Assembly (NCBI GenBank): GCA_003856375.1 | Contig: CP034120.1 | Location: forward strand, 4,025,501 to 4,089,500 | Direction of reading: 5' to 3' | Source: Glaciecola amylolytica | GTDB taxonomy: Bacteria; Bacteroidota; Bacteroidia; Flavobacteriales_D; Crocinitomicaceae | DNA: 64,000 nucleotides | Part shown: positions 15,817 to 31,244 of the stretch, piece after piece | Numbering within the stretch: position 1 is the first letter of the stretch | How the letters are laid out: the number at the start of each line of letters is the position of its first letter | Position numbers and translations under genes: made by a program | Notes under the pieces: generated by a model | Told to the model about the DNA's origin: nothing | Database searches by the model: none | What the model saw: only the letters and a program-made list of their open reading frames with translations

Positions 15817-18800
15817 TTAGTTCTGTTTACGGTTATAGATTCTTATTCCCTTTTTGTCTGTTTTCGGTGTTGAAATGAAGCCCTTGCCCTGGACCAGACT
15901 AGCAAATACCCAGTTCTGTGCAGTGTCTTTAATGACCGCCTGTTTACCATTACGCTGGATATCGGAGAAACCTTCACCCCATGTGCCAACAATTTCGAAG
16001 AAATCTCTTGAGGGAAAATCAGAGGCCCATTTGATGTACAGATTGACTTTTATGTCAAGGGAAACTAGGGGACACTTAAGTACCGCTTTTTTGATATTAG
16101 TCGAAATCACAAGCTTTCCGCCTTCAAAAATGATATGGCCAATCCTTTTCAGCATCAGAGATTTTGAAATGATTACTGCCGGATCAAGAGTGCCAAGTAT
16201 CTTGTCTTTTTGTTCCAATGTAAATTTGTCACTTTCAAGCGTCGCTATAACTTCGCTGGGATCAAAGGAAAACTTATCAATATTGGACGAAACAAATACT
16301 GGTCTCTTTTCGGCAAGTTTAAACGCCAAGCCATCGAAGTTTTCCTGTAAATAACTGAAATTCTCCGGTGTTACGCTAAATTTTTCCTTATCGATCAACG
16401 CTTCGACCTTCTCGGTATCCAGTTCGGTCACAAAGTTAAGATTGTTGTAGCTGTAGGGAATCCCGTCCAATAACCTGGAGTAAGCGGCATTTTCGATGCT
16501 GTTTTCCATAATTATCGTTTTTCCCAGCTTTTGAATTGCAGGTTTTCCTTTTGGATGATCATTGATGTTAAGTGGGAATGTCGCCAACCGGTTGGCATTT
16601 TCGATATCAGAAACAAAGGATGTGAGGGTTTCGTCAAATTTGTCCTCATTTTCCTCCAGATAATATAGAATATTGTCCCACCGTGGTGTAACCTTGTTGG
16701 CCTTCATCAATTCCCTGTCCATATCGTGGTTACTGATATTAACCAGGTCCGTGATCTTCGTTACAGTCTGTTTAATAATCCCGATCTTGTAACTATTTGA
16801 AATATCCTTGTTGTTAATCAGCTCTGCAAAATGTTTTTCTTCTTCGTGCTTGTTGTCGGGCAATGCGAACCAAACCTCGTCGAGATAACTTTCCATATTT
16901 GCCTCAATATAACTCACCAGTTCTTTAGGGGCGTGGATTTTAATGGTACCATAGTTCATCATACCGAATAACTTTTCGTCCAGTGATCCCTTATATTTCA
17001 TGATCTGCTTAATCATGGTAATATTGATTTGGTAAAGGTTTGTCTTTATAATGAATTCGACCATTTCCCGATGACCAACTTGCAGGTCAAGAACCCCGAA
17101 CTTTACATCAAGGGTTTCCAGAAACCGTTTCGATTTCTCTGTATTGGGCAGTATCGTCAACAGATTACTCCGCTCTTCAAGATCTGTTTTTAGGGTCGAT
17201 ACACTGGCTATTTTTGCCAGGTCTTCTATCTCTGCACCACACTGCAGGAGCAAGGCCAGATAAAAATCCTTCCGCTGATCGGTGATCGTCGACCTGGAGA
17301 TATATCGCCACATTCCCGTCCAATGTTTGGTCAGGTATTTAAAGAACTTGTCAACGTGTGTTGTGCGATCAATGAAGCTTTCAATGAACGAAAATGATCG
17401 CTCGCTTTCATTGGACAGCGTTCTCAGAACCTTGCTGCGCACATTTCCGGAGTATGACGTTGTCATCAGGAATTCAACCAGATCATAGTTCAGCACATAA
17501 TCGTGCTCAAATTCTATCTGTGGGATCTTTGAGATAAGTTTGTCTACCTTTCCCAGTTTATAGTCGAAGTCTAAGTATATATGTGCCTTCACATTAAGGA
17601 GAAACTCGCGGTCAGGTCTGGTTATGCTTCCCTCGTAGAATATCGAAACGTAATCAAGATAGTTTTCATCAATGTAACCTGCCCGCAACAGAATACTGAC
17701 CAGTTGTTGTTGCTTCTGGTCCTTAAATTCAAGCTTAACGAGATCGTTCACCATGAGATCTTTTATCGATCTGTTTTTGAGTTCGTTTTTATGAAATTCC
17801 TTTTCTGTAATGGCCTGCCTCAAAGCTTCTAGGTTATCTTTTTCCGCATCGGACACGATTTTAAGTCTATCAGTGTAGGAGTGTTTGGAATCCACGGACT
17901 TTTGGATCTCGGCAAACTTGACCGACATTGTTTTTGGAATTATATCTCCGAACCTATCCAGGATATTGTACTGCATCTTGTTGTCAATGAAATATTGAAA
18001 GGTAGTTTCGTCCATTGCATTTACGAAAGGGTAGGTACTAGAACCAGCTGCAAAGCTGACGGCATTTGGAAACCGTGACAGATATTCCAGTACATAAAGC
18101 TTTCTTAGCTCGTTGGCGTCCTTCAGTGCAAGTGCCTGCGCTTCCTTGATCTCTTCTTTTAGTGCCTTGATATCATTTTCTACTTCAGTGGAAAGTGTTT
18201 TGACGTAGGTGTTCTTATCATGAAGAGCCTTGTGTAGCTCACCACTTCCATTGCTCAGTTCCACAAAGTCATTTGGATAGATGTTTTTGTAGACAATCAT
18301 GGCAAGTAGCTTGTTCTGGTCCTTTACCGTAAGCTGTATATGGTAAAGATAGTATTCGTTCATGATGTTGTACAGAAGCCGCATGTCGTCAACGAAGAGT
18401 GAAATATCGTCCAATAAGTCTGTTTTTATCGCATAACCATTTGTTCTAACGATATCCAGCAATTTTTCATTGGAATTGGAGGAATTAATCACTGGAATTA
18501 CAGGTATGATGAAATCAAAGAACTTGGTGCGGTCCTTGTCCGTGAACATTTCGTCGCGCACAGCATAGACAAATGTCACATGCCTTTCGATTTTTTTTGA
18601 ATAGTTGATCAGATGGTTCAGTTCGCGAAGTTTTGTAAATATTTCGGTCTGTTGAAAGCGGTCCAGATCCTCAATAATTACTACCGTGTAGTCCGTTACC
18701 TCAAAAAAGTAGAGGATCTCATCAAGGTGTTCATTCAGTATTGACTTGCTGATACTTTCGTCAACGGCGAATTCTGCATCCTGCACGTTGAACTTTTTGA

Positions 18801-19407
18801 GCTGCAGACTGCGCAAGGGTCTGATCGATTTGCTGATGAACAGGTAGGTGCTGTATAATATCGTCCCTAAGGCAAGCAATTGGAATGCTATCAATAGGCA
18901 CTTGACAGGCCGGGTTCCAAAAATCGACCAGAACTGTTCTGAATAAAGCAGGTACATCAGGGCAACTCCGAAAAAGAAAATACCCATTGTAAGTTTTTTG
19001 GCGCTTTCATCGGAAAACCTACGGGTCTTTTTAAAACGTGTGTCCGGGATGTCCTCGTCCTTTTCATGATAGAAGATCTGTTGAAGGATGCTAAGTTCAA
19101 TAAGCCTCAACATGGTCTGTTTAGCCTCGGGAGTTGGTTCTTTTTTATCATGCAGTTCTTCCTTGAAGGTTGCCAGTGAAATATTCAGAAAGACAAGGTC
19201 GCTGTCCGTATTATTGGCTTCAAAAGTTTTCAGTATACTGCTTTTTCCCGAGCCGTAAGGTCCAGTCAGGGCGATGTTCTTGATGTCTTTTTCTCGTCTG
19301 TTCTGCAAAGCCCACAAAAGCGTAGCACTGTAATGACCATTACTGTCTGCATTCGATACTGGAGATAGGGAGTTATAAGGTAGATCGTTTTGAATAGCGC
19401 TATCCAT
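15817..19407 (-). CDS. YobI-type P-loop NTPase (KAP/STAND-related) with two membrane helices
   Basis: This 1196-residue ATPase begins with LPYNSLSPVSNADSNGHYS, like YobI-family proteins. Walker A is GPYGSGKSS (49-57) and Walker B is TVVIIEDLDR (241-250). Between them are two membrane helices (about 141-155 and 169-191), a feature of KAP-family NTPases. Beyond residue 400 the protein is a long helical array of unknown role with no catalytic motif, which could sense a ligand. With the adjacent nuclease it resembles two-gene defence modules in which a large NTPase licenses a nuclease. The GC content is near 45-50% in sampled stretches, against about a third nearby. Confidence 0.75.
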   Translation of the reverse strand: MDSAIQNDLPYNSLSPVSNADSNGHYSATLLWALQNRREKDIKNIALTGPYGSGKSSILKTFEANNTDSDLVFLNISLATFKEELHDKKEPTPEAKQTMLRLIELSILQQIFYHEKDEDIPDTRFKKTRRFSDESAKKLTMGIFFFGVALMYLLYSEQFWSIFGTRPVKCLLIAFQLLALGTILYSTYLFISKSIRPLRSLQLKKFNVQDAEFAVDESISKSILNEHLDEILYFFEVTDYTVVIIEDLDRFQQTEIFTKLRELNHLINYSKKIERHVTFVYAVRDEMFTDKDRTKFFDFIIPVIPVINSSNSNEKLLDIVRTNGYAIKTDLLDDISLFVDDMRLLYNIMNEYYLYHIQLTVKDQNKLLAMIVYKNIYPNDFVELSNGSGELHKALHDKNTYVKTLSTEVENDIKALKEEIKEAQALALKDANELRKLYVLEYLSRFPNAVSFAAGSSTYPFVNAMDETTFQYFIDNKMQYNILDRFGDIIPKTMSVKFAEIQKSVDSKHSYTDRLKIVSDAEKDNLEALRQAITEKEFHKNELKNRSIKDLMVNDLVKLEFKDQKQQQLVSILLRAGYIDENYLDYVSIFYEGSITRPDREFLLNVKAHIYLDFDYKLGKVDKLISKIPQIEFEHDYVLNYDLVEFLMTTSYSGNVRSKVLRTLSNESERSFSFIESFIDRTTHVDKFFKYLTKHWTGMWRYISRSTITDQRKDFYLALLLQCGAEIEDLAKIASVSTLKTDLEERSNLLTILPNTEKSKRFLETLDVKFGVLDLQVGHREMVEFIIKTNLYQINITMIKQIMKYKGSLDEKLFGMMNYGTIKIHAPKELVSYIEANMESYLDEVWFALPDNKHEEEKHFAELINNKDISNSYKIGIIKQTVTKITDLVNISNHDMDRELMKANKVTPRWDNILYYLEENEDKFDETLTSFVSDIENANRLATFPLNINDHPKGKPAIQKLGKTIIMENSIENAAYSRLLDGIPYSYNNLNFVTELDTEKVEALIDKEKFSVTPENFSYLQENFDGLAFKLAEKRPVFVSSNIDKFSFDPSEVIATLESDKFTLEQKDKILGTLDPAVIISKSLMLKRIGHIIFEGGKLVISTNIKKAVLKCPLVSLDIKVNLYIKWASDFPSRDFFEIVGTWGEGFSDIQRNGKQAVIKDTAQNWVFASLVQGKGFISTPKTDKKGIRIYNRKQN

Positions 19408-19690
19408 GGATTAAGTTCAGTTTATGAAATCAAAGATAATTATAGGTTTGCTTGATTACCCAATGGTAAGATGCTAGTTAGTAACAATTTAAAAAAATCC
19501 ATTTTTTTTGTTTGCCATCGGATTCATGTATGTCAGTAATAATGTGGGTTGAGACGGGAATACTGAATATTTAGTGCTGACAGTCCGATTTTAATTGTGT
19601 TTTTTGTATTGGTTTTATCTTAATTTCAACCTCATTATTAGTTACTTAACTCTATTCTCATGAAGACCTTTTCGACCTCTTGCGTGTTGA

Positions 19691-20395
19691 TTACCTTGTT
19701 TTGCGCGCATCTTTTTGCTCATGCACAGATTTGTATGTTTTCCTAAAGTAAACATTCTCATCTTGAAGCTCATCAATGTATTTCTTCGTGTGAATATCTG
19801 TTAAACTTCCATTAAAAAGGTCTTTTTTCACATTTTCAAAAATGCTTTCAACGACTGAAATGTAGGCTGAGAAACTTTCAGAGGGAATCAAATCTTTTGG
19901 AGACCTCCAATAAGATTTAGCTTCATCAAAGTTGACATAGTATCCTCGCTGTCTTACCTTTTCAAGGTCAAAATTAAGAGGCTGTTCAGCTTTGGAAGCT
20001 ACAAAAGCGAGAATAAGAAACGTTCCTATGACAACTAATCCCGCGGAATTCTGCTTTTCTTCTGGAAGTGCATTAATGTTATTGATTATGGTTTTAGAGT
20101 AGAGTTTTATAATTGCTTGATGCTTTATTTTATGATCTTTAAAGAAACTCTCAAGTTCCTTAATTACGATGTGTGGGTTGTGTGCTTTAATCTTTAAATA
20201 TGCTGATTTTGAAAGCTCTTCCAGTGAAGTAATTAAAATGGAAGCCCCATTTCCATTGAATCCCTTTTGGTGACAAGTCTTGGCTATTTCTAATAATGAT
20301 TCAGCATTTTCAAGGGCTAACTCAGCTCCTTCTTGATATTGGGTTTTCTTTAAATTTAGGAGAGAGTTCTTTTTCTTAGTTGTATTACTTTCCAT
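19691..20395 (-). CDS. AbiV-family abortive infection protein
   Basis: This 234-residue protein uses the ATG at 20395 (MESNTTKKK); a TTG nine bases upstream is less likely. It matches AbiV: ALENAESLLEIAKTC, then SILITSLEELSKSAYLKIK, then FFKDHKIKHQ, a HEPN-like helical core. The RQRGYYVNFDE segment followed by a W..P motif is also typical. AbiV was first described as a lactococcal phage-resistance protein that acts through a phage-encoded partner. It sits 30 bases after an Mrr-like nuclease gene on the same strand, so the pair may be co-expressed. Confidence 0.75.
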   Translation of the reverse strand: MESNTTKKKNSLLNLKKTQYQEGAELALENAESLLEIAKTCHQKGFNGNGASILITSLEELSKSAYLKIKAHNPHIVIKELESFFKDHKIKHQAIIKLYSKTIINNINALPEEKQNSAGLVVIGTFLILAFVASKAEQPLNFDLEKVRQRGYYVNFDEAKSYWRSPKDLIPSESFSAYISVVESIFENVKKDLFNGSLTDIHTKKYIDELQDENVYFRKTYKSVHEQKDARKTR

Positions 20396-20425
20396 GAGGT
20401 TCAACTTTTATGAAGTAGTGAAGTG

Positions 20426-21241
20426 TTATCGGATAAATTTACGGTTCTCACCAGTCAGGATGTCGTACATTACAGCTTTGATGTCGGAGTGAATATCAAA
20501 GGTTCGGTTATCTTCAAAACATAGGACATCATACTTAAAATGAATTTCAGAAACTTTAAAGAGGTTGTACTTGGGGTGCAAAACATAGGCTTCCTCAAAA
20601 TGGAAAATATGCTTGTTGTCTTTACTTGGAATTAGTTTATTATTGATTGGTAATCTATCTTGCAGGGATAGCATGTCATCTATTCTTTGACCATTCTTAT
20701 CAACCAAAATGATGTCAGTATTTAATTTTGTGAGAGAACCTGAAAAATTCTCATCTATTTCCTTCACATTTTCGAGACTCCAATCCTTATCAAGACCTAT
20801 AAAACAACTACTTACTTTTACTGGTGTTATTGCCCCATTTATGATTAGATGCTTGGGAATGCCTTGTAAATCTTCCTCTTTTGGAGGTCTAATGACCTTT
20901 AAACCGATATTGTTACTTGATGCGAATTTGATTGCCCCTGTCTGAAACCCCTCTGTGGTTACTATGATTCCTTTTGAGCAACTTAAATCATCTAACACAG
21001 CTTTAAAGTTTCGGATTATTCCAATATTGATTTTCTTGGAGTAACGTTTGCATTCTATAGCAATTGATACTGTTTCGCCAAATTGTTTGTATTGCCAATA
21101 AACATCTACTTGGTGAGTAGCCCCGGATTTGCCTTGAATTTTTTGATTGTGTTTTACCTCAATGTTTTCAACTGTGCCCTGGTTCAATATTTGTTGGTAA
21201 ATATCGCGGATAAATATTTCGTAAGCTGTATTGTGATTCAT
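20426..21241 (-). CDS. Mrr-like restriction endonuclease
   Basis: This 271-residue protein has an Mrr_cat nuclease core: THQVDVYWQ with Asp46, IAIECKRYSKK with the E63-C-K65 pair, and the strand GIIVTTEGFQTGA typical of Mrr. The last 130 residues (after about 140) are beta-rich and unrecognised and could recognise a substrate. Mrr-type enzymes cut modified or foreign DNA, or cut the cell's own DNA when triggered. It is upstream of AbiV on the same strand and looks like the first gene of that two-gene unit. Confidence 0.8.
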   Translation of the reverse strand: MNHNTAYEIFIRDIYQQILNQGTVENIEVKHNQKIQGKSGATHQVDVYWQYKQFGETVSIAIECKRYSKKINIGIIRNFKAVLDDLSCSKGIIVTTEGFQTGAIKFASSNNIGLKVIRPPKEEDLQGIPKHLIINGAITPVKVSSCFIGLDKDWSLENVKEIDENFSGSLTKLNTDIILVDKNGQRIDDMLSLQDRLPINNKLIPSKDNKHIFHFEEAYVLHPKYNLFKVSEIHFKYDVLCFEDNRTFDIHSDIKAVMYDILTGENRKFIR

Positions 21242-23373: not shown

Positions 23374-24090
23374 CTATAAACTATTTTTTTCAATCATTTC
23401 AACTGCATCAAGAAGTCGATGTGCGTATGCAAATGCCGGTATTTTAACCCATGACTTTCGTACTTTGATCAACCAAAATAATAGGAAAATCAAAAGAAGA
23501 CCTTCAGCAATGAAAAGTGTTTTTGGAATTGGTGCATTTGGAAATTGAAAGTAGTGATTTATCAAAATTCCAACCATTAATAGAATAATCAATGATATTG
23601 CTGCGCCCTTCATTCCCCATAAATTTCTACGGAACCCATAGTTAATATTTTCACGAAAAATCAAGTGAAATTTACTAGTATCTCGTGTGTTGTTTATTAG
23701 AAATCTTGTCCAGGCCAAATAAACATCATTGGCAGATTCCGGATCCTTTTGCTCTACCTCCTTACTTGGTCTCTGCTCCACGGAGCAAATTAAAAATAGT
23801 GCGTCATGATACCTTTTTTTTGTAAGTTGATCTATTTCATCATTTGACCATCTCAAAAGTTGTGTTGTCGGAGGACCTCCCCATTCTTTCCAAAGTTGTT
23901 TCTCTTTGCGTTTTCCTCCATCTCTTCCAATCTGTGCGAAAAGAAATGCTAAGGCACCTGTGATCCCTACTGAGATTCCAATTTGCATATAGTTTTCAAA
24001 ATGAAGAGAGAATACTATTGCGATTACAATTATCGGTAGGATAAAAAGTAAAACAGGATACGTTCTTGCATTAATTGAATACTTGTCCAT
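23374..24090 (-). CDS. Four-helix membrane protein (candidate effector of the conjugation operon)
   Basis: This 238-residue protein has two N-terminal hydrophobic helices (about 12-28, 36-53), a soluble middle of some 95 residues (EWGGPPTTQLLRWSNDEIDQL, then DTSKFHLIF) and two C-terminal helices (about 158-176, 187-206). No enzyme motif is seen. It is the last gene of the operon, 11 bases after the E2-E1-JAB gene. Small membrane proteins at that place in CBASS-type operons often act as pore or killing effectors, so this is the candidate effector, but it may instead be the modified target. The family is unknown to me; it is not an obvious S-4TM or Cap15 match. Confidence 0.6.
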   Translation of the reverse strand: MDKYSINARTYPVLLFILPIIVIAIVFSLHFENYMQIGISVGITGALAFLFAQIGRDGGKRKEKQLWKEWGGPPTTQLLRWSNDEIDQLTKKRYHDALFLICSVEQRPSKEVEQKDPESANDVYLAWTRFLINNTRDTSKFHLIFRENINYGFRRNLWGMKGAAISLIILLMVGILINHYFQFPNAPIPKTLFIAEGLLLIFLLFWLIKVRKSWVKIPAFAYAHRLLDAVEMIEKNSL

Positions 24091-24101
24091 TAGTTTATTA
24101 A

Positions 24102-26357
24102 TTAAAGTACATAAGGATGAATGTTTGTCTTTGTAACCACCGTCATAAGGACTGGAAGTGGTGGAGTTAACTTATCATGCTCAGGTTTAAATTGCTCCAT
24201 TTGCTTTTTATCAATCGAACTCCATCCTTCTGGACCTACTGGGTGCGTATGCCACTCACCAATATATCCAATTTGACCACCTGAACGAGATGTTATTTTT
24301 GAAATATGCTCTAACAATCCTTCGGATCTTCTTGAGAAATGAATAGGAGTAGCTGCACTGTCCGGAGTGTGAATGATATCCACTATGTGGATAGTCATTG
24401 TTTTATAGTTCGCCACACCAATGAAAATACCTCCTGTTTCGTTACCTTCAGCAGCATTCATCATGGCACGCATGTGAGCAATCACGGTAGATGCATAACG
24501 AATATTCCATCTATCGTCGTTTTTAGCTTTATATACATCAAAAGCCCCTACCTCCCAAGTATTGCTTTTTAAAGAAAAACTATGTTGATTAAAGGTCTGG
24601 AAAGACACTTTCCCCAAAGTAGATTCATTCGCAATTTCCTTTTTTAAAATTCGAGAAAATATTGCCCCATGAAGACCAATTGTATCATCAGCCATTATGG
24701 TTGTTTCTGAATTACATCCAACTCCTATTCGTAACAAAGAGCTACCAGTAGATGCTAATTGCTGTTCTGCGCGTAGCCAGGATGAAATACGATAATCTAC
24801 AACTGAGCGGTAAAAAAGCTCCACTTCTAAATCATCTATGCGAGGATTTCCATTAGAACCTTCTTTTAACAGGTAACTCACATTTCCAGAATCAGATAAA
24901 ACACCTCTAATAAATCGTTGTTTATAGACAGATTTAATTACACGTTCATTCATGAAATTTGTTGAAGCAGTAAAATCAAAAACCCACCAATCTGGAGCTG
25001 TTTCAACCAAATCGTCAGATAAGCTGCTAGTTCCAATAATTCCTACCTTTTCCGGCAAAAATAATTCCCTCATTTTCTTTGCGAGTTCCGATGCTTTATT
25101 TAACCCAACTGATTTAGAATCAAGTGTGTGCCTGACAAGATTGTGCGGAGACAAATTATCTGGATCTACAAGCAAAACAGGTGGTAAACCAGATCTTGAA
25201 AGATTTTCAACAACTTTAGATCCAAGAGCTCCGCATCCATAAACAATAATTGGCTTTGTTACTACCCAATCATCTCCAGCGATTCTCTTAGCGCTCGCTA
25301 CTGTCAATGGTTGATTATGAGCCATTAATTTGACAGCTGTGCCATCATTTATCGTATTATCTTCTCCTTCGTGTTTTGGATCGAATACAACTTTAAAGCA
25401 CAGAAACTCGTAATTTCCTGAAAATCCAATAACCTGTTTTGGTCTCTTTACTCCCAGAACAACAGGTACACTATTATTTGTACGTGGAACAAGACTAAAA
25501 TAATTATCTAAGGATTCTGAAGAAATTCCAAAATTCTGAGCATATTGCTTAAGTTCACCAACATTTGTTGGAAAATCGATTTCAAAGTTTTCACAGATTA
25601 CTTGCTCGCTGCTGGCGAAAACACCTCCGAAAACCAGAATGCGCTTACTTCCATCATTAGATTTTTTTATAAACTCGGCTTTAACATTAGCACTCGCAGT
25701 ATAAACCCCTTCCGCAGTTGATAATATTCGATCTAGTGAAAAAATTTCTGCAGCACTCTTCTGTTTCTTTTCCACACGATATTCAAAGACTGTTAATATC
25801 CAATCAAGTCGAACTGGAGACGCAATTTCCTTAACAACGGTATCGTAATCAAATGCGACAATCCCGTAATATCCCTCCATTCGAAGTGGATCGAATTGAT
25901 CTCCATCCTCATTGATACGACCCGTTGCTACATCATGAAACCAATTGCCTATTCTTATTACTAAATCCTGAATGCGTTTCTGCGCATACCACGTGGCCAT
26001 CTCACCTCGGGTATAACAAATAGCAGGGGGACGTCCATTTGTTGCCACATACAAATGTGCAATAGAATCTTTCGGAAAATCTAATCGATCAGTATATACC
26101 CTGGGAGCTTTATGCGGATATTCCTTTAAGCTAAATACGAAAAGCACCGGTTCCTCTGCACGAATATCCAATTCATTCTTATTACCTAGTGTCGGAAGAT
26201 CCACGTTAATGTTTACAGGAACTGCTATAAAGTTTTCAGAAAACGACAGTACCTTATAGTTTTCTCCACATAGTTCCTGGAGGTGAGTTAGAGAACTCCT
26301 CAAAAGGGAGTTCTCTATATTCTCACTGTATGTTTCAAGGGAATCACTGAACACCAT
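24102..26357 (-). CDS. Fused E2-E1-JAB protein (ubiquitin-like conjugation and deconjugation)
   Basis: The start ATG at 26357 is preferred; 26408 would overlap the MBL gene by 65 bases. Counting from 26357, an E2-like domain (about 30-170) carries the YPHKAPRV loop and Cys114 in PAICYTRGE. An E1/ThiF domain has GCGALG (374-379), the LLVDPDNLSPHNLVRH adenylation region and a candidate catalytic Cys548 (GVGCNSETT). A C-terminal JAB/MPN domain has Glu640, the EWHTHP motif (His703, His705) and SxxD (Ser713, Asp716). The one chain thus holds transfer, activation and removal activities, as the separate Cap2 (E1-E2) and Cap3 (JAB) do in type II CBASS. No ubiquitin-like or CD-NTase gene is visible nearby, so the conjugated protein is unknown. 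Confidence 0.85.
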   Translation of the reverse strand: MVFSDSLETYSENIENSLLRSSLTHLQELCGENYKVLSFSENFIAVPVNINVDLPTLGNKNELDIRAEEPVLFVFSLKEYPHKAPRVYTDRLDFPKDSIAHLYVATNGRPPAICYTRGEMATWYAQKRIQDLVIRIGNWFHDVATGRINEDGDQFDPLRMEGYYGIVAFDYDTVVKEIASPVRLDWILTVFEYRVEKKQKSAAEIFSLDRILSTAEGVYTASANVKAEFIKKSNDGSKRILVFGGVFASSEQVICENFEIDFPTNVGELKQYAQNFGISSESLDNYFSLVPRTNNSVPVVLGVKRPKQVIGFSGNYEFLCFKVVFDPKHEGEDNTINDGTAVKLMAHNQPLTVASAKRIAGDDWVVTKPIIVYGCGALGSKVVENLSRSGLPPVLLVDPDNLSPHNLVRHTLDSKSVGLNKASELAKKMRELFLPEKVGIIGTSSLSDDLVETAPDWWVFDFTASTNFMNERVIKSVYKQRFIRGVLSDSGNVSYLLKEGSNGNPRIDDLEVELFYRSVVDYRISSWLRAEQQLASTGSSLLRIGVGCNSETTIMADDTIGLHGAIFSRILKKEIANESTLGKVSFQTFNQHSFSLKSNTWEVGAFDVYKAKNDDRWNIRYASTVIAHMRAMMNAAEGNETGGIFIGVANYKTMTIHIVDIIHTPDSAATPIHFSRRSEGLLEHISKITSRSGGQIGYIGEWHTHPVGPEGWSSIDKKQMEQFKPEHDKLTPPLPVLMTVVTKTNIHPYVL

Positions 26358-27549
26358 TACCGTACTCTGAAGGTTTATTGACTGTTGAAAGGCCTGCTGC
26401 ACCTGCAATTCGCGACGAACCTTCGTCCTTCTTCGCCTTTATTGGTCCCTGAGTTGTGATCTCAAACACGATAGGTTGAGGTGTGTCTCCTTTCAAGGAG
26501 TGAGTAGCTGTATTCAGGAAGTTTTCGGACTTCACTTTCTTTACATATTGTTCCTTAGCCTTGTAGTGAGGAGGGTTGTCATCATTATTTTTGATTTCCT
26601 TACAGGAGGCAATGATCTTAGCAGTTCCTCTTTTATAGTCTAAAACATCCAATGAGTTCTGAACCGGATCAGGATTATCCGTTTGAGGAGTATCATTGAA
26701 GAAGGTCCATGAACAATGGTGGGGAGCCAGGAATAAATCCCATGTAAGAGCTTCTTCATCGACGTGATTATTATGCTCTTCGGTTTTCTCCACAATTTTC
26801 TCCCAGGCATAATGATCTGCATCTCCTCCAAACATTGCTAATGCACAGAAATCCGAACTGGATGCTGTTGATTTAAATCTGGCTTGAAAAACCACGCTTG
26901 TATGGTTTTTATCTGGATCTGATTCAGTAAGTTGCTCCTTGTAAGGAGCATGAATAAAAATCGAGAACGTAGTCAAATCTTTCTCATTAAATCGATTAAC
27001 TACATCTCCTGGAAGTCTGCGAACAAGATCAAGTCCATCTAAATCCTCATTTGCATCATATCCAATAATAACGATTCTATTTCCAGGAACATCTTTATCA
27101 TCACTATCATCGCGATGTAATTTAATTCGTCGTTTCGCTTCAGCGTTGAAACAATCTTCATCATCATTAGTACTTTCTCCCATTACCATCGGAGAAAACC
27201 AAAGTACGTCAATCACAATTTCACCATTATCCTTGTTACTTTTCTTAAAGTCTTTAGGATCGCCTTGGTAGAAGTTCTTTTCAAAACCATGCAAATGATC
27301 ATCATCTCCATGAGTCAGAATGAAAACATCTGTATAAGGCACAGCAGAGATACCATTTACGGTTCTTGTTTTCAATTGAGTAATTAGATCCGCTTTAACG
27401 TCGAATTGGGAAGTGTCTTCATCTCCCTTACTTGATTCACGGATGTTACAATCTACTAAAATATTGGTGGTTTCAGTTCCTTCTTCAATACTGATTAATG
27501 ACTGATCACCATTGTCTACAGGGTAATATATTATTTTTGAACTCATCAT
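26344..27549 (-). CDS. MBL-fold hydrolase of the E2-E1-JAB operon (fourth)
   Basis: This 401-residue MBL protein carries HGDDDH (residues 80-85), a GGDADHYAWE Asp and an APHHCSW His pair, the same metal site layout as the other three but a distinct sequence. It is unusually rich in Asp and Glu. Its final residues (SSRIAGAAGLSTVNKPSEYG) are small and Gly/Ala-rich, like a flexible tail. It is the first gene of the operon and overlaps the E2-E1-JAB gene by 14 bases. MBL proteins beside E1-E2-JAB genes have been noted in comparative genomics; the substrate is unknown. Confidence 0.8.
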   Translation of the reverse strand: MMSSKIIYYPVDNGDQSLISIEEGTETTNILVDCNIRESSKGDEDTSQFDVKADLITQLKTRTVNGISAVPYTDVFILTHGDDDHLHGFEKNFYQGDPKDFKKSNKDNGEIVIDVLWFSPMVMGESTNDDEDCFNAEAKRRIKLHRDDSDDKDVPGNRIVIIGYDANEDLDGLDLVRRLPGDVVNRFNEKDLTTFSIFIHAPYKEQLTESDPDKNHTSVVFQARFKSTASSSDFCALAMFGGDADHYAWEKIVEKTEEHNNHVDEEALTWDLFLAPHHCSWTFFNDTPQTDNPDPVQNSLDVLDYKRGTAKIIASCKEIKNNDDNPPHYKAKEQYVKKVKSENFLNTATHSLKGDTPQPIVFEITTQGPIKAKKDEGSSRIAGAAGLSTVNKPSEYGNGVQ

Positions 27550-28160: not shown

Positions 28161-28751
28161 ATGAAGTTAGGAGAGCATTATAACGGAAACCATATTCGCA
28201 TTGCAGCCCTTTCCGAGAATGATTGGAAGGTCGCATTGAAAAAGTGTAAAACACATATTCGTTTACGAATTCGTCAACGAACTTTGTATGGGGCTCACTC
28301 ACCATCCAATTTAGGAGCAGATCCAGTAGAACATTATCTCGGAATTGCTTATGAGAAAATTCTGAGTGGTGAATGGGAATGGAAGGAGCAGTATTCTCTT
28401 GCGGAACAAATGATTAGAATTGCCGATAAATTCATTGGTGATACTGTCGATAAATATAAAAGGGAGAAGTCAGAAGCTCTGAGAATTGTTTACAAGGACA
28501 TTGAGGTTGATTTTTATGGCCTGGCGAATGCCCCTCCGGATACGGATGAAATTGAATACGAAGAAAGACTAAAGACTATTGAAAATGCTGTTTCAGATGA
28601 TCAACAACTTTCAATGCTATTAGAAGGTGTTAAAGCTGGATACAAGAGAAGTGAAATCGCTGATTTATTGGAAATTCAACCTCGACAACTGGATAAGCTA
28701 AAAGAAAAATTGGAAAGAAAAGTAAAAAATTATAAATCTTCATCACAATAA
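28161..28751 (+). CDS. Sigma-70-like factor with C-terminal HTH
   Basis: This 196-residue protein has an N-terminal helical part (ALKKCKTHIRLRIRQRTLYGAHS, then DPVEHYLGIAYEKI) resembling region 2 of sigma-like proteins. Its C-terminal helix-turn-helix (about 160-186, GYKRSEIADLLEIQPRQLDKL) is like region 4. An acidic linker lies between. It could be an alternative sigma factor or a DNA-binding protein of phage origin. It is the first of three plus-strand genes and is divergent from the conjugation operon, so it is a natural regulator for it. Assignment is by pattern and moderately sure. Confidence 0.6.
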   Translation: MKLGEHYNGNHIRIAALSENDWKVALKKCKTHIRLRIRQRTLYGAHSPSNLGADPVEHYLGIAYEKILSGEWEWKEQYSLAEQMIRIADKFIGDTVDKYKREKSEALRIVYKDIEVDFYGLANAPPDTDEIEYEERLKTIENAVSDDQQLSMLLEGVKAGYKRSEIADLLEIQPRQLDKLKEKLERKVKNYKSSSQ

Positions 28752-28753
28752 CC

Positions 28754-29152
28754 ATGGCAACAAAACAAGCTTTAAGCAATCTTTACGGGTTGATGATGGA
28801 AATTAATCTTCACCAATCGGATGAGGATGTATTGCACGAACTACACGAACATCCGGATCCGCAAATAGACAAGCACTTATTAAAAATTAGACAATTATCA
28901 ACGAAATTAAAAGCTGAGGCAAATAAGACCCATTTCCAGACAGTTAAGGAGCAACTAGAAATCTTTAAACAAAAGGGGATAGAAGAGCTAAAAAAATTAC
29001 TTCAGCCTACTGAACAAGTGGAATTGAGTCCATTATTCAGAAAATTTGAAGAGCTTACCGAAAAGGATGAAAAAGCTATTTCGGAAGATCAAGAATTATT
29101 AAAATTGATGCGGATTTTAAAAAATAAACTGGATGACAACCAAAATAAGTAA
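28754..29152 (+). CDS. Small helical protein, candidate anti-sigma or cleaved partner
   Basis: This 132-residue, all-helical, charged protein (LHELHEHPDPQIDKHLLKI, then LKAEANKTHFQTVKEQLEIF) has no family I recognise. Its start is 3 bases after the sigma-like stop and its end overlaps the ImmA/IrrE gene by 20 bases, so the trio is one translational unit. Between a sigma-like factor and a peptidase, the obvious inferred role is the factor's inhibitor or the peptidase's substrate. Confidence 0.6.
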   Translation: MATKQALSNLYGLMMEINLHQSDEDVLHELHEHPDPQIDKHLLKIRQLSTKLKAEANKTHFQTVKEQLEIFKQKGIEELKKLLQPTEQVELSPLFRKFEELTEKDEKAISEDQELLKLMRILKNKLDDNQNK

Positions 29153-29912
29153 TCCAGTATTAGCCGCAAATGAAGTACACAAAATGCTAGGCTGGACCAA
29201 CCCTGAGGATTTTACGCTTGATGAAATTGCTAATGCCTTGGGAATTATGATCAGAGATGTCTCAATTGAAGGTTCAGATGGTCGAATTTTAATTGATGAG
29301 GATTCTGCAATTATGTCGATTAACTCTTCAATCACCTATGAACCAAAAAGAAATTTTGTTATCGCTCATGAAATAGGCCATTTCACGCTCCATAAAAATA
29401 TTTCTCAACTTTTTTCTGATACTGATCAAACGTTGTCAGAATGGTATCAAACAGGACCACAAGAACAGCAGGCTAATCAATTTGCGGCTGAACTATTAAT
29501 GCCTAGTGTCTTGTTCAAAGAAAAATTAGCCAAAAGAAAGTTGAATTTGAATCTTATTCATGAGGTAAGCAACTACTTTAAAACTTCCATTACTGCAACT
29601 TTTTTGAGGTACGTAACTCATGGAGATTTTCCTTTAATGGTAGTTTTTATAGAAAATGGTATAGTGAAATGGAAAAGTGTTTCCACAGACTTTCCATTTC
29701 ACTATTTTAAGCTTGGATCAGAGGTCCCTGCATTAACTGTAGCTGGAGATTTTTTCAACAAAAATCAACGAGAAGATGATCCTGAAAAGGTTGATGCAAT
29801 CGAATGGTTTCCTGAAGAATTTTGGTTACACAAAAATCCAGATTATCAGCTTTGGGAGCAATGTTATCCAATATCGTCAACTGGATTTATCTCTTGCCTT
29901 TGGACTTCTTAA
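29133..29912 (+). CDS. ImmA/IrrE-family metallo-endopeptidase
   Basis: This 259-residue protein has an ImmA/IrrE core: IAHEIGHFTLHK with the HEIGH zinc motif (79-83) and EQQANQFAAELLMP (111-124), which supplies a third ligand. The final 90 residues are mixed alpha/beta and may be a sensor part. Peptidases of this kind cleave repressors in mobile elements (ImmA) or control stress responses (IrrE, CapP), releasing transcription. It is the last gene of the sigma-like trio; the stop is 22 bases before the convergent integrase stop. Confidence 0.85.
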   Translation: MTTKISNPVLAANEVHKMLGWTNPEDFTLDEIANALGIMIRDVSIEGSDGRILIDEDSAIMSINSSITYEPKRNFVIAHEIGHFTLHKNISQLFSDTDQTLSEWYQTGPQEQQANQFAAELLMPSVLFKEKLAKRKLNLNLIHEVSNYFKTSITATFLRYVTHGDFPLMVVFIENGIVKWKSVSTDFPFHYFKLGSEVPALTVAGDFFNKNQREDDPEKVDAIEWFPEEFWLHKNPDYQLWEQCYPISSTGFISCLWTS

Positions 29913-29933: not shown

Positions 29934-31244
29934 TCAAATCAACCGGATCTTAAAATGATCTGGATTACTCTCTTGTAACCGGGCCAACTCTTTCACAAAC
30001 AATACTGCATTTTCAAGCAGGGAAGTTTTGTTGTAACCAAAAATGATACTGGTTTCTTTGAGTTGGTGAGAAGTGATTTTAGTCAAGATGGTAACAGGAA
30101 CGTAATTAATCAAATTGGTAATAAAGGAGCGTCTGCCTGTATGCGACGAAACAAACCTGTCAAAACGTTTGGTTTCCAGTACTCTCTTACCCCGGCAGTC
30201 TGTATAACTCAATGTGATTTCCTCTCTCAATTTACAATCAAAAATGAGATCTTTTACGTTCAGATTGAATGCAACTTCGGTATACCGATGAGCGATTGGT
30301 CCCCCGTTTTGCTTCCAGGCATCTTTTAATGGCTTCAGGATCGGAATGACCACCTCTACATCGCGCTTTTGGGTGATGAATCGTGCGTAGTCAAATGAAA
30401 CTCCATTCTTGGAATAGGAAAACTCTGGTTTGACTTTGAATACATCGGAATACCTGCACCCGGTAAAAAGCAACGTTAGAAAGATCAATTTCGTATCCCT
30501 CATTCGCTCTGTATCTGGTTTATGCTTAATCACTTTCTGAATTTGCTCAAAGTTCAAATAGATTTTCTCTTCGAACTTTAAAAACCGAACCTTATCATTG
30601 GGGGATATTTCAACGGTTGGGATAAAAACATCCACATTATAAGTCTTTGCAATTCTTCGCATGACCGTCTTGAAATCTGCAAACGATAGCCAAAGGCTGT
30701 TTTGCTTTTTGACTTTCTCTCTTCTCATTTCCATATACTGAGCATACAACTGCTCATTCATGTCATTGCTATAAAGTGGTTTCCGGATCTCTTTTTCAAA
30801 ATCTTCAAGACGCCTAACGAAGGATTCAAAACGTTGCTTGGTTTTAAGCGAATAGGAGTCGCGATGGACGAATTCCTGGTTGATGAAATCGATTAAACGA
30901 ACTTTGGTGACCACTTCATCCGATTTCCCTTTAAGCTTCACATCCAACTCATTCTTGATTGCTTCGTTGGAAACTTTATCTTTCATTTGAAGATATTGGA
31001 AAACATCTTCTATGGTTTTCTGAATAGTCAGCAATTCGTTCTGCTTACTCTTTTGGAAAGGTTGCTTGAGTGTTTCATTCCAATCCTGGCGGGCAATCTT
31101 GATTCCGGTGTAATACTTCAGTGGTTTGTAAACGTACTTTAATTTTAGTGCATCAAATTCTTTGTACCCGAAGTTGATAATGGCAATGACGGGAATTTCA
31201 CCCTCCATTCCTGTCTTCAAGACAAAATTAATTTTTAATTTCAT
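29934..31244 (-). CDS. Tyrosine recombinase / integrase of the island
   Basis: This 436-residue site-specific recombinase has an N-terminal arm-binding region, a SAM-like core-binding domain (about 110-215) and a catalytic domain with TGCRYSD (Arg264), SSHTGRRS (His368-x2-Arg371), His393 in TSHQLKETS and Tyr404 in FGYNK. The His-to-Tyr distance is 11, slightly longer than common spacings, but the set is complete. The layout is typical of Bacteroidota integrative elements. It sits at the right edge, pointing inward, with the chromosome beginning within about 290 bp upstream. Confidence 0.85.
   Translation of the reverse strand: MKLKINFVLKTGMEGEIPVIAIINFGYKEFDALKLKYVYKPLKYYTGIKIARQDWNETLKQPFQKSKQNELLTIQKTIEDVFQYLQMKDKVSNEAIKNELDVKLKGKSDEVVTKVRLIDFINQEFVHRDSYSLKTKQRFESFVRRLEDFEKEIRKPLYSNDMNEQLYAQYMEMRREKVKKQNSLWLSFADFKTVMRRIAKTYNVDVFIPTVEISPNDKVRFLKFEEKIYLNFEQIQKVIKHKPDTERMRDTKLIFLTLLFTGCRYSDVFKVKPEFSYSKNGVSFDYARFITQKRDVEVVIPILKPLKDAWKQNGGPIAHRYTEVAFNLNVKDLIFDCKLREEITLSYTDCRGKRVLETKRFDRFVSSHTGRRSFITNLINYVPVTILTKITSHQLKETSIIFGYNKTSLLENAVLFVKELARLQESNPDHFKIRLI

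Follow-up and report, generated by a model that had tools for sequence, protein, structure and literature searches.

A 6A-MBL operon with a single-chain E2-E1-JAB enzyme and an adjacent metallo-beta-lactamase as its putative modifier

Closest described systems

The closest described relative of the locus presented here is operon type 6a, in which a 'triple module' E2-E1-JAB protein almost always adjoins a metallo-beta-lactamase (MBL), usually as a two-gene arrangement and with no Ubl (ubiquitin-like) gene listed in row 6a of the survey (Iyer et al. 2006, PMC1779556). The same authors speculated that such operons would use either a Ub-like protein of their own or an endogenous ThiS/MoaD (PMC1779556). 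The locus shares with type 6a the single-chain E2-E1-JAB and the adjacent MBL, and differs from what that source describes by adding a third gene for a 4-TM protein and a CapP-like divergent module. In the literature searched, which left most subscription papers and preprints outside, no paper was found under the name 6A-MBL, nor any report on the conjugation of an MBL.

A second point of comparison is type II CBASS. There, Cap2 activates the terminal Gly/Ala of the CD-NTase and joins the CD-NTase to lysines, and conservation of this terminal residue is confined to operons that possess Cap2 and Cap3 in full (PMC10097602, PMC11153139); a tandem cGAS fusion is moreover cut by Cap3 where the first copy ends (PMC10097602). 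The likeness extends to the E1-E2 relay, the JAB isopeptidase, regulators of the CapW/CapP type, third genes for patatins or membrane proteins, and a neighbouring enzyme in which a Gly at or near the C-terminus is conserved, whereas the MBL replaces the CD-NTase, the JAB is fused in the same chain and trimming would be required for many of the tails. A Ubl is used and encoded by Bil and Bub operons, whereas no recurring Ubl candidate is found at 6A-MBL loci, the E1, E2 and JAB chemistry being common to them all. These two operon types are named in PMC13373217.

The E2-E1-JAB chain and its distribution

The window, i.e. the whole stretch of 64,000 nucleotides analysed, is part of a 4.6 Mb genome on a single contig. 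It holds three tightly packed minus-strand genes encoding, in order, the MBL, the E2-E1-JAB fusion and the 4-TM protein, the MBL gene adjoining the fusion ORF with a 14-nt overlap. The features considered are as follows:

23374-24090, minus strand: 4-TM membrane protein (P0003), 238 aa, third gene of the operon, candidate effector
24102-26357, minus strand: E2-E1-JAB single-chain enzyme (P0001), 751 aa, matched by NF058523 and three Pfam domains
26344-27549, minus strand: MBL protein (P0002), 401 aa, predicted ComEC-type metallo-beta-lactamase fold, proposed modifier; core at residues 1-375, predicted disordered tail at 376-401, with G397 followed by NGVQ
28161-28751, plus strand: 196-aa protein, weakly sigma-70-like, putative first gene of the divergent module
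28754-29152, plus strand: 132-aa protein, weakly CapH-like, putative repressor or CapP substrate
29133-29912, plus strand: CapP-like M78 (ImmA/IrrE) peptidase, putative regulator of the operon

Counted from an ATG start, the fusion has 751 residues, a longer TTG start at 26408 being possible. Its Pfam domains succeed one another in one chain as E2 (Prok-E2_A, 59-170), E1 (ThiF/E1, 370-432) and JAB (Prok-JAB, 625-722), all above cut-offs. The first-pass annotation had placed the three activities in a single polypeptide at 24102-26357, rightly as regards both coordinates and motifs. The contrast it drew with type II CBASS, which divides them between Cap2 and Cap3, also holds, the activities being fused here in one ORF. 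Against NCBIfam, the fusion scores 520.7 bits with NF058523 ('6A-MBL_cap2_3', cut-off 320) and the MBL 365.9 bits with NF058524 ('6A-MBL_enzyme', cut-off 220), both families bearing the name 'anti-phage 6A-MBL system' and both cut-offs being passed. These family matches identify the operon as a 6A-MBL system, which NCBIfam calls anti-phage, and the E2-E1-JAB plus MBL architecture is not new in view of these families and of row 6a of Iyer et al. 2006 (PMC1779556). Among PDB sequences, the top matches of the fusion are the Cap2 chains 7tsx, 7tsq and 7to3, for the E1 part only, and the E1 domain matches ThiF/MoeB as well.

Conservation was assessed in an alignment of 93 full-length fusions, the window's included and short or broken ones excluded. 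H101 and C114 of the E2 domain as well as G374, G376, G379, D398, R409, K421 and C548 of the E1 domain are invariant throughout (93/93), two more E1 positions varying slightly (R388 in 88/93, D461 in 89/93). The loss of the E2 active Cys, which the first-pass annotation had named as evidence against its reading, occurs in none of the 93 aligned sequences. In the JAB domain, E640, H703, H705, S713 and D716 are invariant in 93/93, this conservation of the His residues being partly built in for the 80 genome loci because the search peptide pattern contained the JAB HxH; 15 plasmid rows and an 8-row alignment of further genomes were selected without that pattern. The strict HxHP..SxxD spacing is found in 82 of the 93. 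The roles of these E2, E1 and JAB residues (catalytic Cys and so forth) are those which we assume from knowledge of the families and, judging by the residues, the E2-E1-JAB chain is catalytically complete.

As to distribution, nine of 395 genomes of the phylum, the window's included, carry the fusion at E <= 1e-40, seven of them above the family cut-off, and of 59 genomes searched as relatives (again including the window's) it is present in the window's own only. Plasmid records yielded 145 with a relative at E <= 1e-20, 106 of which are typed conjugative and 71 come from Klebsiella, with at least 80% of the query found in one place in 25 of the 145; phage records gave no fusion relative at E <= 1e-8. 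From the scan of genome contigs the best 80 of 531 relatives were kept (L012-L091), and from the 18 of the viral contig scan one was analysed (L092), which aligns to query residues 44-751, so that together with the window 82 loci were analysed. The 6A-MBL operon is a patchy and mobile system. In 79 of the 82 loci, the gene immediately upstream of the fusion encodes the MBL; the other three, L041, L045 and L064, have a broken or split gene, with the MBL still near. As for the broken copies of the fusion, it is in several pieces in L041 and split in L045, and in L125 an IS3 transposase gene sits inside it.

The adjacent MBL and its C-terminal glycine

The proposal that the MBL is the partner of the fusion arises from its predicted disordered tail, which has an invariant Gly close to the C-terminus. 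An alignment of 50 MBLs was drawn from the 79 adjacent ones, the others being 20 to 73% identical to the window's. In it, the metal-site motif residues H80, D84, H85, D243 and H277 are invariant, the HxDxDH-type motif reading HGDDDH at 80-85, and G397 is the sole invariant column of the tail (50/50), the runner-up being Y396 (25/50). With the same alignment, AlphaFold2 gives a mean pLDDT of 89 and only residues 376-401 fall below 50; the tail is thus predicted to be disordered, the core being modelled with confidence. The closest structure to this model is the ComEC MBL domain 9ic4 (Z 24.1, rmsd 3.0, 250 aligned), followed by a phosphorylcholine esterase (Z 21.4) and by RNase J/Z rows at about 15. 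A ComEC-type MBL is also matched in sequence (E 5.1e-9), and LmuA and Avs1a are matched weakly. In the light of its modelled fold and its metal-site motif, the protein is a ComEC-type MBL. Because the NF058524 match stops at residue 368, which is the model's end, the Gly tail lies outside the NCBIfam MBL family match.

The adjacent MBLs typically finish in a Gly/Ala/Ser-rich tail ending in YG, QG, HG or RAG, often with a few residues more. Within the last 10 residues, the terminal-Gly motif occurs in 78 of the 79, a count that is not unbiased as the motif was written after seeing those very sequences; the sole exception, L029, ends in NGDDVI. The same motif occurs in 27 of 632 other ORFs of at least 200 aa from these loci and in three of the 79 fusions, these 79 MBL-fusion pairs leaving aside L041, L045 and L064 with their broken or split genes. 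An exact C-terminal Gly is borne by 34 of the 79 MBLs vs. 43 of the 632 other ORFs, for which the Fisher p of 8e-16 is overstated since family members are not independent.

Beyond this first set, the motif was recovered in 15 of 16 plasmid operons, hand-picked among 40 of the 145 records so as to avoid near copies and some of them closely related to the first set; the remaining one ends in RVG, likewise a terminal Gly. Four additional adjacent MBLs from further genomes bear it in three cases, the fourth being that of a divergent relative (L134) whose tail ends in RTGFGSYNE, which slightly lowers confidence in the MBL as modifier. Where the MBL-like protein is not beside the fusion, the motif is absent in 22 of 22 controls (first loci, at least 200 aa, some matches weak), obtained from 25 MBL-profile matches by removing L041, L045 and L064 as core MBLs of broken fusions. 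With the ComEC nuclease domain and the MBL group of Avs1a and LmuA, the adjacent MBL shares the HxDxDH-type motif and the fold, the difference being that MBL-like proteins elsewhere in these loci have no Gly tail (0/22). Four weak MBL matches come from genomes without a detected fusion, and three of them lack the motif. The fourth, L136, is an ambiguous case: it ends in EYGR and its MBL sits at a contig edge, in a genome without fusion at E <= 1e-40. On a FastTree phylogeny of the 93 fusions, in which 19 of 90 inner branches are weak, the tails, classed by the letters that precede the Gly, group according to enzyme clade and change class at least 11 times, and the Gly itself is retained in all 93 rows despite these changes. 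As a separate observation, the window's 4-TM family is found in L021, L030, L071 and L084 beside or near a different MBL devoid of Gly tail, possibly a separate two-gene system made of these two components.

A conventional partner was sought in the same loci. None of the three operon proteins has a CD-NTase or Ubl family match in Pfam, PADLOC or NCBIfam, which bears out the earlier observation that neither a beta-grasp Ubl nor a CD-NTase is encoded in the three-gene operon; the absence of CD-NTase applies to these three proteins and seven neighbours, with PADLOC for the fusion read among the matches listed (25 of 54 families). Small ORFs of 45-160 aa around the operons, 482 in all and contributed by 92 of the 98 loci, gave four blastp clusters present in at least three loci, namely an HTH-type regulator (8 loci), a set HNH-like by eye (3 loci) and a further pair, both confined to the same three loci of Clostridia. 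A Ubl gene in the loci of most relatives, the finding which would have told against the first-pass reading, thus has no recurring candidate among these 482 small ORFs, a fast-evolving Ubl being able to escape blastp clustering. Of the small ORFs, 28 end in G and four in GG. A nearby Ubl gene was rejected as partner on the grounds that no small-ORF cluster of that kind recurs. The enzyme could instead borrow a host beta-grasp carrier of the ThiS/MoaD type, the MBL acting as a separate effector. The genome of the window does hold one ThiS/MoaD-family protein above cut-off, and an endogenous ThiS/MoaD or operon Ubl is what Iyer et al. proposed (PMC1779556); yet a carrier of this sort leaves the Gly of the MBL tail unexplained (78/79, 15/16 and 3/4 beside the fusion, 0/22 elsewhere), on account of which host ThiS alone was rejected and host borrowing as a whole is considered improbable. 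Of the first-pass statement that the enzyme has no visible ubiquitin-like partner, what stands is the lack of a recognisable beta-grasp partner; the modifier itself is probably present as the adjacent MBL, with its invariant near-terminal Gly and its disordered tail.

Acting as a modifier would have a cost in maturation. Given that 45 of the 79 adjacent MBLs, the window's included, end in a residue other than Gly, a trimming step must be assumed, and in the window the NGVQ that follows G397 means that the protein would match the conserved terminal Gly/Ala of CBASS after trimming only. The cut of the tandem cGAS fusion by Cap3 is the kind of reaction that removal of this extension requires (PMC10097602). 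The same facts can be turned towards a reading in which the tail is a JAB substrate or an inhibitory peptide, trimming at the Gly activating the MBL and nothing being conjugated: 44 of the 78 motif-bearing MBLs have one to five residues past the motif Gly, and other defence systems pair MBL-fold pro-nucleases with proteases (PMC12799240). Trimming would not be general, however, as 34 of the 79 already end in Gly, and the E2 and E1 cysteines, invariant in 93/93, would be idle, so that activation by trimming only seems rather unlikely.

Third genes, control and the proposed pathway

The third gene was surveyed in 98 loci (the 82 plus 16 plasmid regions), of which 96 were evaluable, two ending too early. 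It was classed from crude gene calls by means of hydropathy and home-made profiles, in a set of loci that includes some near copies. The classes comprise 45 membrane proteins (16 of the window's family A, 18 of family B and 11 others), 17 patatins, one caspase, three second MBLs and six other soluble proteins; in the 24 other loci, the crude gene caller showed no third gene within reach. Pfam on 10 chosen third genes identified Patatin in six and a caspase domain in one, the latter at L069:11215-12579 in a 6A-MBL operon (C14, 7e-22). Between families A and B of small membrane proteins, hhalign detects a weak similarity of profiles (E 4e-5, probability 70). The window's protein has four hydrophobic segments and an all-helical AF2 model (pLDDT 93.7), and N148, G152, F153, R155 and N156 are among the invariant columns of its family in 22 homologues. 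It has no Pfam or NCBIfam match above cut-off, no PADLOC match, no PDB sequence match at E <= 1 and no Foldseek match at E <= 0.001. In terms of sequence families, the third genes resemble CBASS effectors, i.e. membrane proteins, patatins and one caspase.

The recurrence of such killer-type genes also bears on whether the operon might have nothing to do with defence and be an E1 system for sulfur transfer or biosynthesis. The match of the E1 domain to ThiF/MoeB is compatible with this, but the fused E2 and JAB, the third genes just described, the patchy distribution (9/395 genomes of the phylum, the window's alone of 59) and an NCBIfam name that is anti-phage all make it highly improbable.

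Regarding control, the module at 28161-29912 on the plus strand diverges from the operon. Its first protein reaches 16.5 bits with NCBIfam sigma70-ECF, under the cut-off of 42.9, and no useful PDB match was obtained with a 4-row profile; the 132-aa protein matches PADLOC capH (E 5.7e-5) without an HTH family match in Pfam, and the peptidase matches PADLOC capP (E 2e-63) and Peptidase_M78 (1.5e-17). A similar divergent three-gene layout is seen in L020, L027 and L039, with 18-20% identity for the first gene, and the module may represent a variation on CapH-CapP control made up of sigma, anti-sigma and protease. CapP-like M78 peptidases figure among the upstream genes, with profile matches in 18 of the 82 loci, part of them not divergent. 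Short HTH genes stand beside CapP-like peptidases in L022, L031 and L056, WYL proteins lie upstream in L084 and L053, and WYL annotations are present in six of the 16 plasmid regions.

In the surroundings of the operon, defence-type neighbours are encoded at 15817-21241 on the minus strand, i.e. a YobI/Tmn ATPase (PADLOC Tmn, 4e-86), an AbiV-type HEPN protein and an Mrr-type nuclease. A tyrosine recombinase with a weak XerC match lies close to the operon at 29934-31244 (minus strand) and is likely tied to the mobility of the island. The search for att-type direct repeats as island ends gave only short imperfect pairs, one of which (23 nt, 83%) touches the end of the recombinase gene.

Taken from the analogy with Cap2 and the motifs at hand, the reading preferred here is that the operon probably works like type II CBASS, with the MBL enzyme substituting for the CD-NTase and being itself the modifier. 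The JAB domain would first remove the few residues past G397, which are NGVQ in the window. The Gly thereby exposed would be adenylated by the E1 domain and the MBL taken onto C548, from where the E2 domain, via C114, would transfer it to a lysine on a protein of the host or of a phage; the JAB domain would also undo this conjugation. Once conjugated, the MBL could be localised or primed, and its hydrolase output, be it nucleic-acid damage or a small signal, would cause the third-gene effector to fire, here the 4-TM protein. Upstream of all this, DNA damage may act on the divergent CapP-like module, which would switch the operon on.

Seen more broadly, the chances are about even that 6A-MBL operons represent a second conjugation pathway with a non-beta-grasp modifier, in which cellular or phage proteins would be covalently joined to the C-terminal Gly of a ComEC-type MBL. 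This enzyme, in lieu of a cyclase, would then act ahead of exchangeable killer effectors such as a 4-TM protein, a patatin or a caspase, in a CBASS-like manner without CD-NTase and with maturation, conjugation and deconjugation gathered in one chain. Should the MBL tail be the substrate, the puzzle of the conjugation target of type 6a, dating back to 2006, would be testable by single point mutants, and a conserved near-terminal Gly in a neighbouring protein may guide the study of other E1 operons seemingly without a ubiquitin-like protein. It would also mean that bacteria attach whole enzymes by ubiquitin chemistry more widely.
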